A DNA stretch of 64,000 bases. Origin: Hymenobacter caeli. Its GTDB lineage: Bacteria; Bacteroidota; Bacteroidia; Cytophagales; Hymenobacteraceae. This document shows positions 6,910-25,821 of the stretch, in pieces. The notes below the pieces were generated by a model. It saw only the letters and a program-made list of their open reading frames with translations, ran no database searches and was not told the DNA's origin. Numbering within the stretch: position 1 is the first letter of the stretch; every line of letters starts with the position of its first letter. The position numbers and the translations under genes are program-made. The DNA lies in the NCBI RefSeq assembly GCF_013294115.1, contig NZ_JABSNP010000008.1, positions 124,001 through 188,000 of the forward strand. Direction: 5' to 3'.

Positions 6910-8202
6910 CTAAGCAAAAAGCGGGTAGTCCTGGAGCCAGGCATTCACCTGCCGGCGCACCTGGCCCAGGCGGGTGTCGTCGGCGTGGTGGGTCAGGGCC
7001 TCGTCAATCAGCTCCACCACGCGGCCCATGTCGGCCGTGCCCAGGCCCCGGGTGGTGATGGCGGCCGAGCCGACGCGCATGCCGCTGGTCACGAACGGCG
7101 ACTTGTCGTCGAACGGCACCATGTTTTTGTTGATGGTAATGTCGGCCTTGACGAGGGTGTTCTCGGCCAGCTTGCCGGTGAGGCCCTTCGAGCGCAGGTC
7201 AATCAGCATCAAGTGGTTGTCGGTGCCGCCCGAAATAATGTCGTAGCCCAGCCCCGTGAAGCCGGCCGCCAGCGCCTGGGCATTGGCCGCCACCTGCTTC
7301 GCATAATCGGTAAAATCGTCGCTCAGGGCTTCGCCGAAGGCCACGGCCTTGGCGGCAATCACGTGCTCGAGGGGCCCGCCCTGCGTGCCGGGAAACACGC
7401 CCGAGTCGAGCAGGGCCGACATGGGCCGGATGTCGCCCTTGGGCGTTTTCAGGCCGAAGGGGTTGTCGAAGTCCTGGCCCAGCAGGATGAGGCCGCCGCG
7501 GGGGCCCCGCAGCGTTTTGTGGGTCGTGGTCGTCACGATGTGGCAGTGCTGGAACGGGCTGTTCAGCAAGCCTTTGGCGATGAGGCCGGCGGGGTGCGAG
7601 ATGTCGGCCAGCAGCAGGGCCCCCACCTCGTCGGCGGCTTCGCGCAGGGCTTGGTAGTCCCAGTCGCGCGAGTAGGCCGAGGCCCCGCAGATAATCATTT
7701 TGGGCCGCTCGCGGCGGGCAATTTCCTTCACCTTCGGCCAGTCGATGCGCCCGGTTTCCTGTTCCACGCCGTAGAAACTGGGCTGGTAGAGCTTGCCCGA
7801 AAAGTTGACGGGCGAGCCGTGGGTGAGGTGGCCGCCGTGGGCCAGGTCGAAGCCCAGGATTTTGTCGCCCGGTTGCAGGCAGGCCAGCATCACGGCGGCG
7901 TTGGCCTGGGCCCCGGAGTGGGGCTGCACGTTGGCCCAGGCCACGCCGAACAGCTCCTTCACGCGGTCGATGGCCAGCTGTTCCACTTGGTCAACGATTT
8001 CGCAGCCCCCGTAGTAGCGCTTGCCGGGCAGGCCCTCGGCGTACTTGTTGGTGAGCACCGAGCCCTGGGCGGCCATCACCTGGTCCGACGCGTAATTTTC
8101 GGAGGCAATCAGCTCCAGGCCGTGGGTCTGGCGGGCTTTTTCCTGGTCGATGAGGCCGAACACGGCGGCGTCGTAGAGGCGAGCGGGGGCGGTGGTTTGC
8201 AT
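6910..8202 (-). CDS. glyA: Serine hydroxymethyltransferase
   Basis: A 430-residue PLP enzyme that converts serine and tetrahydrofolate to glycine and methylene-tetrahydrofolate in the cytoplasm. The PLP lysine is K229 in the conserved [14 protein letters not shown], and the N-terminal [10 protein letters not shown] motif is intact. Length and motifs are typical. The ATG at 8202 is chosen because the frame upstream reads Pro/Gly-rich filler and because the -7 box TACCTTTG ends only four bases before it. That spacing predicts a leaderless or nearly leaderless mRNA. Confidence 0.97.
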
Positions 8203-8364: not shown

Positions 8365-9642
8365 ATGCCGACGCCCCTTGCCGAAACGCTGACGCACCTG
8401 CGCGTTGGCAACCAGAAATTTCTCGTTGATTTTTATAAGCAGCGCCGCGACGTGTTTGGGCGCTGGGCCCTGGGCCAGCACCAGCTGGCGGCCCCGGCGG
8501 CGCACGCGCTGCTGCAAAACGCCCTCCTCGATTTCTACGACCAAGTAGCCGACGGCCGCCTCACCCGCCTGCCCCCCGACGTGCCGGCCTACGTGAACCG
8601 CCTGGCCGAGCAGCGCCTGGCGGCCCCGGCCGCCACCGCCCCGCTGCCCGCCGCTGAGGCCAGCCGCCGCCAGCTGCGGCTGGCCGACTTCCACCAACTG
8701 GGGGCCGACTGCCAGCGGCTGCTGGCGTACTTCTACTTCCACGGCTACAACTTCGGGCGGATGAGCGGCAAGCTGGGCTTTGCCAACCCCGCCGTGGCCC
8801 GCCGCCAAAAAGGGGGCTGCCTGCGCAAGCTGGTGGAGCTGACCGAGCCGCCCCACGACTTCCGCGCCCACCTCGACGAGCTGGAACGCTTCGCCGACGG
8901 CGAGCTGGACGAGCCCGCCCAGGCGGCTTTTGAGCAGCGCCTGACCACCGACGAGCCCCTGGCCGCCGCCCACGCCGCCTACGAGCAGTTTGCCGCCGAC
9001 CTGCGCTGGGCCGCCGGCCACGACGCCCTGCGCCTGCGCCTGCGCGTGCTCGACCGCCGCCTCGACCAGCGCACGTCGGCCCTGGTGCTGGCCAAGCGCC
9101 GCAGCTTCCGCGAGCGGCGGCGGCTGCGGCGCTGGTCGGGCGGGGTGGTGCTGGCCCTGGCCCTGGCCCTGGGCCTCGGGTGGTGGGCCGGCCGGCCGGC
9201 GGCCCCCTCCCCCACCAGCTGGAAAGCCTACTACCAGCCCGTCCCGAGGCTGCTGCCCGTGCCGGCCCTCCGGGCCCGCCCGCTGCTGGCCGAGGCCATT
9301 GCCCAGTACCGCGACGGCCACTACCCGGCGGCGCTGCACACGCTGGGCCGCCTCTCGCCCGCCGAGGTGGGCCTCGACACGCTGAACTTCTACCGGGGCG
9401 TGATTTTGCTGCGCTCGGGCAACGGCCAGGCCGCCCAGGAGCCCCTGCGCCGCCTGGCCCAGCTGCCCGCCAACCCGCTGGCCCGGCGGGCCCTGTACCA
9501 CCTCGGCATGGCCTACTGGCAGGCCCAGCAGCCCGGCCCGGCCTTCGAGGCGTTGCGCCAGGTGGCCACCGACTCGCTCAACCCCTACCAAATCAGTGCC
9601 CGGCGGGCCCTGGCCTCGGGCGCGTTGCTGCCGCCGCCGTAG
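8365..9642 (+). CDS. Sigma-70 family factor fused to anti-sigma, membrane and TPR parts
   Basis: A 425-residue protein in which several normally separate modules are joined. Residues 10-88 resemble sigma region 2. Residues 106-160 resemble region 4, with a helix-turn-helix around YNFGRMSGKLGFANPAVARR. Residues 165-215 (ERFADGELDEPAQAAFEQRL) look like the cytoplasmic part of an anti-sigma factor. A membrane segment lies at about 258-275, and TPR-like helices fill 305-415 outside. No zinc-binding HxxxCxxC is visible. In this phylum the sigma and the TPR anti-sigma are usually two adjacent genes. The ATG at 8365 is preferred to the GTG at 8353. The signal and target genes are unknown. Confidence 0.75.
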   Translation: MPTPLAETLTHLRVGNQKFLVDFYKQRRDVFGRWALGQHQLAAPAAHALLQNALLDFYDQVADGRLTRLPPDVPAYVNRLAEQRLAAPAATAPLPAAEASRRQLRLADFHQLGADCQRLLAYFYFHGYNFGRMSGKLGFANPAVARRQKGGCLRKLVELTEPPHDFRAHLDELERFADGELDEPAQAAFEQRLTTDEPLAAAHAAYEQFAADLRWAAGHDALRLRLRVLDRRLDQRTSALVLAKRRSFRERRRLRRWSGGVVLALALALGLGWWAGRPAAPSPTSWKAYYQPVPRLLPVPALRARPLLAEAIAQYRDGHYPAALHTLGRLSPAEVGLDTLNFYRGVILLRSGNGQAAQEPLRRLAQLPANPLARRALYHLGMAYWQAQQPGPAFEALRQVATDSLNPYQISARRALASGALLPPP

Positions 9643-22999: not shown

Positions 23000-24313
23000 A
23001 TGCTGAACCGCCGCCTCCTTCGCATCAAAGTCATGCAATCCCTGTACGCCTACCACCAGGCGGCCGGGGCCGATTTGGGGCTGGCCCAGGACCGCATCGC
23101 CGAAGCCTTCGAGCCCGACCTGAACGCCGAAGTGGCCCCCGACCGCCGCCAGCTCGAAGGCCAGCGCAAGCTGGGCGAGGCCCGCTTCCGCGAGTGGCAC
23201 CGCACCCACGAGGCCCCCGAGAAAACCGACGATAAGGCCGTGGACGAGGCCCTGAACGACGCCATCCGCTACTACCAGGACCAGGTGAAGAAAGACGCCA
23301 AGTTCTTCGGCGGGCAGCTGCTGGCCGGGGCCGAAAGCATCCACGACCAGTACCTGCACCTGCTGAACCTGCCCGCCTCGCTGCTGCAAGTGCTGGAAGA
23401 AGACAACGACCGCGAGGCCCGCCGCCGCCTGGGCCCCCGCGAAAACGCCCTGGACACCAGCCGCCTGGCGGGCAGCACCGCCATCGCCAAGCTCATGGCC
23501 AACGAGCAGCTGCAGAGCCTCACCATCCGGCGCAAGCTGCAATGGCTGGGCACCGAAGAGCTGGAGGCCCTGCGCCGGGCCTGGCGCGACGAGATGAGCG
23601 GCCACCCCACGGTGCTGGCCTACCTGAAGGGCCAGCCCCTGGCCGCCGCCACCCTGGCCACCGCCGACGCAGAAACCGATAGCCCCGCCGAAACCGACGC
23701 GGACGGCGGCGATGAGGCTGCCACCGACGAGGCCCCGGCTTCTACCCTCGCCGCCAGCGGCGAAGAAGCCGAGTACGAGGCCGACCTGGAATTTCTGCGC
23801 TTTCTGTACAAGGAGTTTGTGTTCAGGGGTGTGGAGTTGCCCCGCCAGCTGGAGAGCGACGACTTGAATTGGGAAGAAAACCGGCCCATCGTGCGCAACC
23901 TGGTGCTCAAAACCCTGAAGATGCTGCCCTACGCGGCCACCGACCAGCAGGAGCTGATGAACCTGAGCGCCAACTGGGCCGACGACCGCGAATTTGCCGA
24001 AACCCTGTACCAGCAGACGCTGGCTGACGACGCCAAGGCGGAGGCCCTTATCGCCGGGTCGGTGCAGAACTGGGACGTGGAGCGCGTGGCCCTGCTCGAC
24101 AAAATCATCCTCAAGATGGCCCTGTGCGAAATGCAGCTTTTCCGCGGCATTCCGGTGAAGGTGACCATCAACGAGTACATCGAAATCAGCAAGGTGTACA
24201 GCACCCCCAAAAGCAAGCAGTTCGTGAACGGCGTGCTCGACAAGCTGGCCCAGGACCTGGCCGCCAGCGGCGAGATTCGCAAATCGGGCCGCGGCCTGCT
24301 CGACAACCAGTAG
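23000..24313 (+). CDS. nusB: Transcription antitermination protein NusB (long form)
   Basis: A 437-residue protein, much longer than the roughly 140-residue E. coli NusB. The N-terminal MLNRRLLRIKVMQSLYAYHQ is the conserved NusB helix in Bacteroidota. The classical NusB core lies at the C-terminus (about 300-420), with IPVKVTINEYIEISK and STPKSKQFVNGVLDKL. An acidic Ala/Asp/Glu-rich insert lies near residues 220-255. NusB with NusE binds boxA RNA and supports rRNA transcription. The ATG at 23000 starts at the conserved motif. It begins a run of co-directional genes through coaE. Confidence 0.93.
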   Translation: MLNRRLLRIKVMQSLYAYHQAAGADLGLAQDRIAEAFEPDLNAEVAPDRRQLEGQRKLGEARFREWHRTHEAPEKTDDKAVDEALNDAIRYYQDQVKKDAKFFGGQLLAGAESIHDQYLHLLNLPASLLQVLEEDNDREARRRLGPRENALDTSRLAGSTAIAKLMANEQLQSLTIRRKLQWLGTEELEALRRAWRDEMSGHPTVLAYLKGQPLAAATLATADAETDSPAETDADGGDEAATDEAPASTLAASGEEAEYEADLEFLRFLYKEFVFRGVELPRQLESDDLNWEENRPIVRNLVLKTLKMLPYAATDQQELMNLSANWADDREFAETLYQQTLADDAKAEALIAGSVQNWDVERVALLDKIILKMALCEMQLFRGIPVKVTINEYIEISKVYSTPKSKQFVNGVLDKLAQDLAASGEIRKSGRGLLDNQ

Positions 24314-24393
24314 TTGCGCCGTCGGGCCCCGGGCATCTTGAAGGCCGTATATTTCGTAAAACCGCGCATTTTCCACCCTTCCTCTCCCGCATC

Positions 24394-24702
24394 ATGGCTG
24401 GCAAAACCACCACCGGCATTCTGTGTTTCACGGGCGGGGCCCTCACCGGGGCCCTCTTTGGCCTGCTCTACGCGCCCGAAACGGGCCGCGAAACCCGCTC
24501 CTGGCTGAGCTACCAGCTCGAAAAGTCCCGCGCCATGCTCGCCGACCTCGCCGAAGGCCTCGTCACGAGCCGCGAGGCGGGCGCGTCGTCGGCCAAAACC
24601 GAGGGCCAGCGCGTCATCTCCGACGCCCGCGACAAAGCCGAGCAGCTGCTCGGCGACGTGGACCAGCTCATCAACCAAATCAACTCCCGCAAGGGCGCTT
24701 AA
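24394..24702 (+). CDS. YtxH-domain membrane protein
   Basis: A 102-residue protein with an N-terminal glycine-rich membrane segment (about 8-25: FTGGALTGALFGLLYAPETG) followed by a long charged helix. The membrane motif ending LLYAPETGRETR is the YtxH signature. YtxH proteins are linked to general stress in Bacillus and have no known biochemical role. It follows nusB by 80 bases on the same strand. Confidence 0.85.
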   Translation: MAGKTTTGILCFTGGALTGALFGLLYAPETGRETRSWLSYQLEKSRAMLADLAEGLVTSREAGASSAKTEGQRVISDARDKAEQLLGDVDQLINQINSRKGA

Positions 24703-24706
24703 TTTC

Positions 24707-24808
24707 AATGGGTGAATGGGTGAATGAGTGAATGAGTGGACGGAACCCGGTGCAGAGAAATCCCCTGGGCCCCAGCCACTCATTCACTCATTCACCCATT
24801 CACCCATT
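24707..24808. repeat. Inverted repeat A built of GTGAATGG/GTGAATGA octamers
   Basis: Perfect 33-base arms at 24707-24739 and 24776-24808, each a run of eight-base units, enclose 36 bases. The right arm continues with one more unit almost to the icd start codon at 24823. As RNA it would form a long hairpin just ahead of icd. Confidence 0.8.
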
Positions 24809-24822
24809 CACTCATTGAAAAA

Positions 24823-25821
24823 ATGCACCTAGTAACCCTCATTCCCGGCGACGGCATCGGGCCGGAAATCACCAAAGCTGTTACTGATATTTTCGCCGCC
24901 GCGCAGGTGCCCGTGCAATGGGAAGAGCAGAACGCCGGCCAAACCACGTTCGACCAGTCGGGCGAGCTGATTCCGGTGGCGCTGCTCAAGTCGCTGGAGA
25001 AGAATAAGGTAGCCCTCAAGGGGCCCATTACCACGCCGGTGGGCAAGGGCTTCCGCAGCATCAACGTGACGCTGCGCCAGAAGTACGACCTCTACCAGAA
25101 CGTGCGGCCCAGCAAAACCACGCCCGGCATCCACACCCGCTACGAAGGCATCGACCTGGTGCTGTTTCGCGAGAACACCGAGGGCCTGTACTCGGGCCTG
25201 GAGGTGTTCGACGAGCGCCTGGGCATCGCCGATTCCATTGCCCGGGTGACGGTGGAGGGCAGCCGCAAAATTTGCCGCGCCGCCTTTGCCTACGCCAACC
25301 GCCACGGCCGCAAAAAAGTGACGCTGGCCCACAAGGCCAACATCATTAAGATGGCCGGCACCATTATGATCAACGCCTGCAAAGAGGCGTCGCTGGAGTT
25401 TCCGCACATCGTGTTCGAAGACAAAATCATCGACAACATGTGCATGCAGCTGGTGAGCAAGCCCGAGCAGTTCGACGTGATTGTGACCACCAACCTGTTC
25501 GGCGACCTGCTCTCCGACCTGTGCGCCGGCCTGGTGGGCGGCCTGGGCGTGGTGGCCGGGGCCAACATCGGCGACAACATGGCCATTTTTGAGGCCGTGC
25601 ACGGCTCGGCCCCCGACATTGCCGGGCAGGGCAAGGCCAACCCCACGGCCCTGCTGCGCTCGGCCATCATGATGCTGCACCACCTGGGCGAGCACGTCGT
25701 CGCCGACCGCCTCGACAAGGCCCTGGACGACACGCTGCTGCACCAGGAGCAGTGCACCGGCGACCTGGGCGGCCGCGCCACCACCAGCGAATTCACCCAG
25801 CACATCATCGACAAGCTGTAG
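24823..25821 (+). CDS. NAD-type isocitrate dehydrogenase
   Basis: A 332-residue member of the isocitrate/isopropylmalate dehydrogenase family, oxidising isocitrate to 2-oxoglutarate in the cytoplasm. The start LVTLIPGDGIGPEI, the substrate-binding RENTEGLYSGLE and the NANFGDLLSD-like TTNLFGDLLSDL are present. The short length and the ENTEGLYSG form fit the NAD-dependent isocitrate group rather than LeuB. The gene lies inside a cluster whose other members are nusB, DUF1573, yajC, ybbR-like and coaE, and it is bounded by inverted repeats on both sides. Homoisocitrate or isopropylmalate activity is the alternative. Confidence 0.85.
   Translation: MHLVTLIPGDGIGPEITKAVTDIFAAAQVPVQWEEQNAGQTTFDQSGELIPVALLKSLEKNKVALKGPITTPVGKGFRSINVTLRQKYDLYQNVRPSKTTPGIHTRYEGIDLVLFRENTEGLYSGLEVFDERLGIADSIARVTVEGSRKICRAAFAYANRHGRKKVTLAHKANIIKMAGTIMINACKEASLEFPHIVFEDKIIDNMCMQLVSKPEQFDVIVTTNLFGDLLSDLCAGLVGGLGVVAGANIGDNMAIFEAVHGSAPDIAGQGKANPTALLRSAIMMLHHLGEHVVADRLDKALDDTLLHQEQCTGDLGGRATTSEFTQHIIDKL

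Follow-up and report, generated by a model that had tools for sequence, protein, structure and literature searches.

A single gene of Hymenobacter caeli was found to encode, in one chain, sigma-like, anti-sigma-like, membrane and TPR parts, the composition that an initial annotation of the locus had proposed. Sequence comparisons indicate that the source of this gene is two neighbouring genes, one for an ECF-derived sigma-like protein and one for a membrane-bound TPR anti-sigma factor, and that the sigma part had lost features normally needed by a working sigma factor, in fused and split species alike. We tentatively favour the reading that the product is a membrane-held one-component regulator that would work in place, by way of its sigma4 helix-turn-helix or by touching RNA polymerase, with no release of the sigma part; this reading is ranked above its main rival, the proteolytic release of a working sigma factor. 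The gene lies in a stretch of 64,000 nucleotides, hereafter the window, and its features are collected in Table 1. No paper was found on this gene in Hymenobacter, nor, among papers that combine all six terms asked for, on TPR anti-sigma fusions in Bacteroidetes.

Table 1. Features of the fused gene and its surroundings (window coordinates unless a locus is named; G and L numbers are our handles for genomes and loci).
Feature	Residues	Position	Strand	Basis
Fused gene	425 aa + stop	8365..9642	+	Open frame; clade-wide fusion; dN/dS
Sigma2-like domain	4-88	8374..8628	+	VIA-align to CnrH and SigW
Sigma2-sigma4 linker, very short	87-95	8623..8649	+	Lies between model helices 73-86 and 96-110
Sigma4-like helix-turn-helix domain	93-164	8641..8856	+	VIA-align to SigL sigma4; Lys149 conserved
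Anti-sigma-like helical domain	165-232	8857..9060	+	Corresponds to N-terminus of downstream gene in split relatives
Transmembrane helix, N-terminus predicted inside	258-276	9136..9192	+	Hydropathy and basic N-side flank
TPR-like domain, predicted periplasmic	299-417	9259..9615	+	VIA-align; Pfam TPR_16 in relatives
Lysine-rich frame downstream of fused gene	40 residues	9714-9836	+	
glyA, divergent; conserved neighbour marking the locus		6910..8202	-	Beside the gene in all loci examined
TTCTGCGTAGCTTAG copies		L018 2371-2385	-	
		L029 1417-1431	+	
		L037 5523-5537	+	
		L019 2320-2334	-	
		Others		

The claim of a single uninterrupted frame was borne out: the gene opens with ATG at 8365, closes with a TAG stop at 9640-9642, and comprises 425 codons with no internal stop. 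The same fusion is common to six species forming one clade, whose proteins share 71-77% identity with the window protein, and in a sister genus the eight genomes are fused without exception. Since the fusion recurs in these independent genomes, an assembly or sequencing error joining two genes, the artefact against which the initial annotation had cautioned, is excluded. Downstream of the gene, the lysine-rich frame is matched, at 65-90% identity over 25-40 residues, in every fused member of the window clade, with nothing beyond chance in the other loci.

The domain boundaries first proposed proved correct to within a few residues, and structure prediction recovered the sigma2, sigma4 and TPR folds. 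The whole-chain AlphaFold2 model reached a pLDDT of 89 (59 aligned rows). Foldseek searches with the whole chain were filled by TPR matches, and residues 1-233 were therefore predicted separately (pLDDT 91, pTM 0.87, 84 rows); the best Foldseek match of this part was AlgU-MucA, at an E-value of 0.076. In VIA-align comparisons, the sigma2 part of the model (residues 3-88) matched that of CnrH (4cxf; Z 6.7, 2.9 A over 82 residues) and SigW (5wuq; Z 6.4, 2.9 A over 82), and the sigma4 part (93-164) matched SigL (3hug; Z 7.6, 2.1 A over 70). All Z scores of the sigma part are modest, below 8, and nearly all of its top matches are sigma factors. The TPR part (299-425) matched YbgF (2xev; Z 14.8, 2.3 A over 119 residues) and BamD (2yhc; Z 14.4), and the Pfam TPR_16 profile has matches in 34 of 34 relatives, with a best E-value of 1.3e-11. 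The anti-sigma-like part consists in the model of three helices (166-177, 183-195 and 197-232). Hydropathy of the membrane helix peaks at 1.58 (Kyte-Doolittle, 19-residue window), and lysine and arginine account for nine of the 17 residues before it and two of the 17 after it, a basic N-terminal flank from which the sigma part is predicted to lie inside and the TPR part outside. When sigma2 and sigma4 were superposed jointly, the model lay 8-11 A from anti-sigma-bound ECF factors (6dxo, 1or7 and 6in7; over 135-147 residues) and 23-25 A from factors bound to RNA polymerase (6dv9, 6koo and 6jbq). The modelled arrangement is thus compact and more like the anti-sigma-bound than the polymerase-bound factors, a likeness that may reflect no more than the bound state.

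Homology of the N-terminal part to ECF (group IV) sigma factors, with their sigma2 plus sigma4 architecture, is indicated by the profiles of its relatives and by its fold. The window protein itself gave no match to sigma profiles, and the window gene is absent from the 26 places listed by a TIGR02937 scan of its own genome at 0.001. Nevertheless, TIGR02937 is matched by 28 of 34 family members at E-values up to 1 (best 1.8e-6), and the family profile also picks up sigma genes throughout Cytophagales, with E-values of 1e-8 to 1e-22; when the sigma alignment was used as a profile against the PDB, the matches were only weak, the best of them SigL at 0.082. The assignment to sigma regions 2 and 4 made in the initial annotation therefore stands on the agreement between the relatives' profile matches and the structure, but not on a match of the window protein.

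Named relatives in the public collection belong exclusively to Hymenobacter, and at a threshold of 1e-30 the family was detected in 91 of 120 Hymenobacter genomes. Full-length single matches were found in seven genomes (that of the window, G037, G053, G339, G012, G305 and G352, the last being H. negativus, identical to L036). One further locus, L101 (G368), also forms one frame, with a 21-residue linker, in a draft carrying 6% contamination. Nearly all the other genomes with the family have two adjacent matches, in most cases at the same spot beside glyA. In all loci examined from Hymenobacter and the sister genus, a divergent glyA adjoins the gene, with tatC beyond it in nearly all of those that have enough flank. 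The expectation that sigma factor and TPR anti-sigma are usually separate neighbours was supported, as 84 of the 91 family-bearing Hymenobacter genomes lack a full-length single match and an anti-sigma homologue adjoins the sigma gene in most of 23 more distant Cytophagales relatives.

Three junction states were observed between the two parts, namely a gap of about 50 to 340 bases, an ATGA overlap, and an in-frame fusion with neither a stop nor a second start. In many of the gapped split species, a conserved element, TTCTGCGTAGCTTAG, occupies the gap that follows the sigma stop and precedes the anti-sigma start; exact copies are present in 20 of 184 loci, a count that includes repeats of one genome, and a shorter form occurs in 19 of 55 split rows. 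This element, which resembles a Bacteroidota -7 box, may be a promoter of the anti-sigma gene that was lost in overlapping and fused species. Palindromic repeats (GTCATGCTGAGCGCAG...CTGCGCTCAGCATGAC) were also seen between the two genes in some split species (L042, L046, L011, L008 and L050).

Four changes are needed to explain the fused state on a tree built from both parts. A single clade of all fused rows was rejected by the AU test (p 5.5e-7), as was one of the eight fused Hymenobacter rows (p 0.0083); the grouping of the window clade with H. negativus was not rejected (p 0.146). Comparison of the sequences thus gives good support to at least three fusions, with four being the most parsimonious number. 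Change counts on a tree cannot by themselves separate gain from loss, and the direction is read as fusion, not splitting, because the outgroups are split and because of the series of junction states.

Residues on which sigma factors normally depend were compared by aligning the family with the 23 more distant relatives, the outgroup rows being trimmed by profile matches; E. coli RpoE was included as the numbering guide for D48, Gln51 and N80. The region 2.2 aspartate (D48), present in 91% of the more distant relatives, is Ala48 in the window protein, and in the clade formed by Hymenobacter and the sister genus Glu, Gly and Ala predominate at the site, Asp persisting in 5% of the split species and 12% of the sister genus. 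Gln51, also in region 2.2 and present in 100% of the more distant relatives, is retained in the window clade, but Arg stands in its place in 60% of the split species and in 87% of the sister genus. The region 2.3 asparagine (N80) occurs in 91% of the relatives and in none of the Hymenobacter and sister-genus clade, where Gln, Glu or Leu is found instead (Gln83 in the window protein). Lys149 of sigma4 is conserved in all groups. From the N80 position to the start of sigma4, split Hymenobacter have 14-20 residues, the window clade has 14-17 and the sister genus 22-23; none of these ranges overlaps with the 28-36 residues of the distant relatives, and E. coli RpoE has 45. Within the same genome, 21 other sigma-family proteins were recovered from 24 loci, and all of them (21/21) have Asp or Glu at the D48 site, with 30-101 residues in the corresponding stretch, the value of 101 belonging to a longer sigma type. 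A distant paralogous ECF sigma factor was also noted in this genome (contig C6, near 24059-24918; L181, L031); Asp48 and Gln51 are retained in it, its stretch before sigma4 is 41 residues long, and a weak match to the anti-sigma part lies just downstream (E 0.02). Because unfused species carry the changes in region 2.2, region 2.3 and the linker too, the alignment places these changes before the fusions.

In Mycobacterium tuberculosis SigH, the region 2.3 asparagine (N88) melts the promoter and the N88A variant is defective, and 40 residues separate sigma2 from sigma4 (PMC6411747). The ECF linker, of fewer than 50 residues, runs through the active-site channel (PMC8103513). In the model of the Hymenobacter protein, about 9 residues are left between the helices flanking the linker, which looks too short to seat sigma2 and sigma4 normally on a -10/-35 pair.

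In the mechanism that we tentatively prefer, the sigma-like part would stay in the cytoplasm, packed against the anti-sigma part as compactly as in anti-sigma-bound ECF factors. The periplasmic TPR domain would sense a ligand or an envelope protein, and the signal would travel along the long helix 197-271 and alter the presentation of the sigma4 helix-turn-helix or of an RNA polymerase contact. Action in place, and not as a cut-loose sigma factor, is favoured because region 2 is altered, the sigma2-sigma4 link looks too short for a -10/-35 pair and the model resembles anti-sigma-bound factors. It also fits this preference that Lys149 of sigma4 is kept and that the sigma part is the most constrained of the chain. 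Against it stand the retention of Gln51 in the window clade, the natural occurrence of His and Arg at the region 2.3 asparagine position (PMC6411747) and the widely variable linker length of ECF factors (PMC8103513).

The strongest competing explanation, somewhat less probable in our judgement, is that the protein is a working ECF sigma factor, held at the membrane through its fused anti-sigma part until regulated proteolysis of the Prc/RseP type sets it free. It draws on the presence of a sigma fold, the retention of basic residues in sigma4, the strong constraint and known precedents. IutY of Pseudomonas putida (ECF243) is a sigma/anti-sigma hybrid of 374 residues whose freed sigma domain is active after cleavage by Prc and RseP, and in which sigma domain, membrane helix and periplasmic regulatory domain follow in the same order (PMC5411451). 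Sigma/anti-sigma fusions also form a known class, which includes the actinobacterial ECF48, ECF52 (SCO4117) and ECF53, where sigma shares one chain with an anti-sigma-like part and with membrane helices and proteolytic freeing has been proposed (PMC8999054). If the Hymenobacter sigma part worked as in IutY or ECF48/52/53, the proteolysis model would be the natural one. However, region 2.2, region 2.3 and the linker are altered throughout the clade, including the split species, whereas the 21 other sigma-family proteins recovered from the genome have an acidic residue (Asp or Glu) at the D48 site and a stretch of at least 30 residues. Of the initial proposal of a membrane-tethered sigma factor requiring proteolysis or a conformational change, the one-chain architecture thus stands, with precedents in IutY and ECF52, but a working sigma factor awaiting release is not what these alterations favour.

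Similarities to the known systems are partial. The Hymenobacter chain shares with IutY and ECF52 the union of a sigma part, an anti-sigma-like part and a membrane helix. IutY, however, works together with a TonB-dependent receptor in iron cell-surface signalling and yields an active freed sigma domain, whereas the Hymenobacter chain has a periplasmic TPR domain, glyA and tatC as neighbours, and altered region 2.2, region 2.3 and linker. ECF48, ECF52 and ECF53 differ in their zinc-finger anti-sigma domain, other sensor domains and phylum. ECF42 likewise carries TPR after sigma in one chain, and its C-terminal TPR extension is needed for activity; by the review's description this extension is all that is added (PMC8999054), with no membrane helix or anti-sigma-like part, unlike the Hymenobacter protein with its helix at 258-276 and basic N-side flank. 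The direct relatives are the ECF/TPR anti-sigma pairs of Cytophagales, whose two homologous parts occur in the same order. These pairs differ in being separate genes that keep the region 2.2 aspartate, the region 2.3 asparagine and the 28-36-residue stretch, and in having, in the nearest other genera, a neighbouring TPR-CHAT gene (G289, G333 and G384, with CHAT recognized by profile). This neighbour is seen in the nearest genera but not universally, and no CHAT match was found in the window's genome. A TPR-CHAT-like gene convergent with the pair was also noticed in several Cytophagales genera (L150, L153, L154, L084, L085 and L086), where, outside G289, G333 and G384, it is known from reading the sequence; CHAT genes beside ECF54 are mentioned in a review of non-canonical ECF factors (PMC8999054).

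Median dN/dS values (NG86) for the sigma part and for the rest of the chain, respectively, were 0.14 and 0.34 in the window clade, 0.27 and 0.33 in the sister genus, 0.17 and 0.22 in one split group, and 0.14 and 0.20 in another. In every group the sigma part is therefore under the stronger constraint. A loss of constraint on it is rejected; by this measure, the fused state has not relaxed its constraint. These values bear on the idea of a decaying system, in which sigma function was lost in an ancestor, the genes are tolerated while being lost, and fusion is neutral drift. We regard this as improbable: the absence of the family from 29 of the 120 Hymenobacter genomes at 1e-30, and that of the CHAT-domain neighbour from the window's genome, would suit it, but constraint in the fused clade is no weaker than in split species, frames are intact in every fused species, and 41 columns of the sigma part are invariant across 34 sequences. 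Equally unlikely is a sigma-like part that no longer binds DNA and, held at the membrane, serves to titrate or to anchor by making contact with RNA polymerase or with another sigma factor. Retention of the sigma2 fold together with changed -10 residues would suit this idea, but the residues expected to bind core are changed as well (the region 2.2 aspartate, and Gln51 in most split species and the sister genus) and the DNA-facing residues of sigma4 are kept.

Fusions of sigma and anti-sigma factors are already known, from a few lineages. Here, the separate, overlapping and fused stages can be seen side by side in one genus and its sister genus. For the annotation of such chains, the warning follows that they should not be called sigma factors from fold alone. 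It is conceivable, though we hold it with reserve, that an ECF sigma factor lost what initiation requires, stayed with its membrane anti-sigma factor and became a one-component regulator acting in place, and that fusion could then occur repeatedly since release was no longer needed. The family thereby raises a testable question, whether a sigma factor can turn into a conventional regulator that stays at the membrane permanently.
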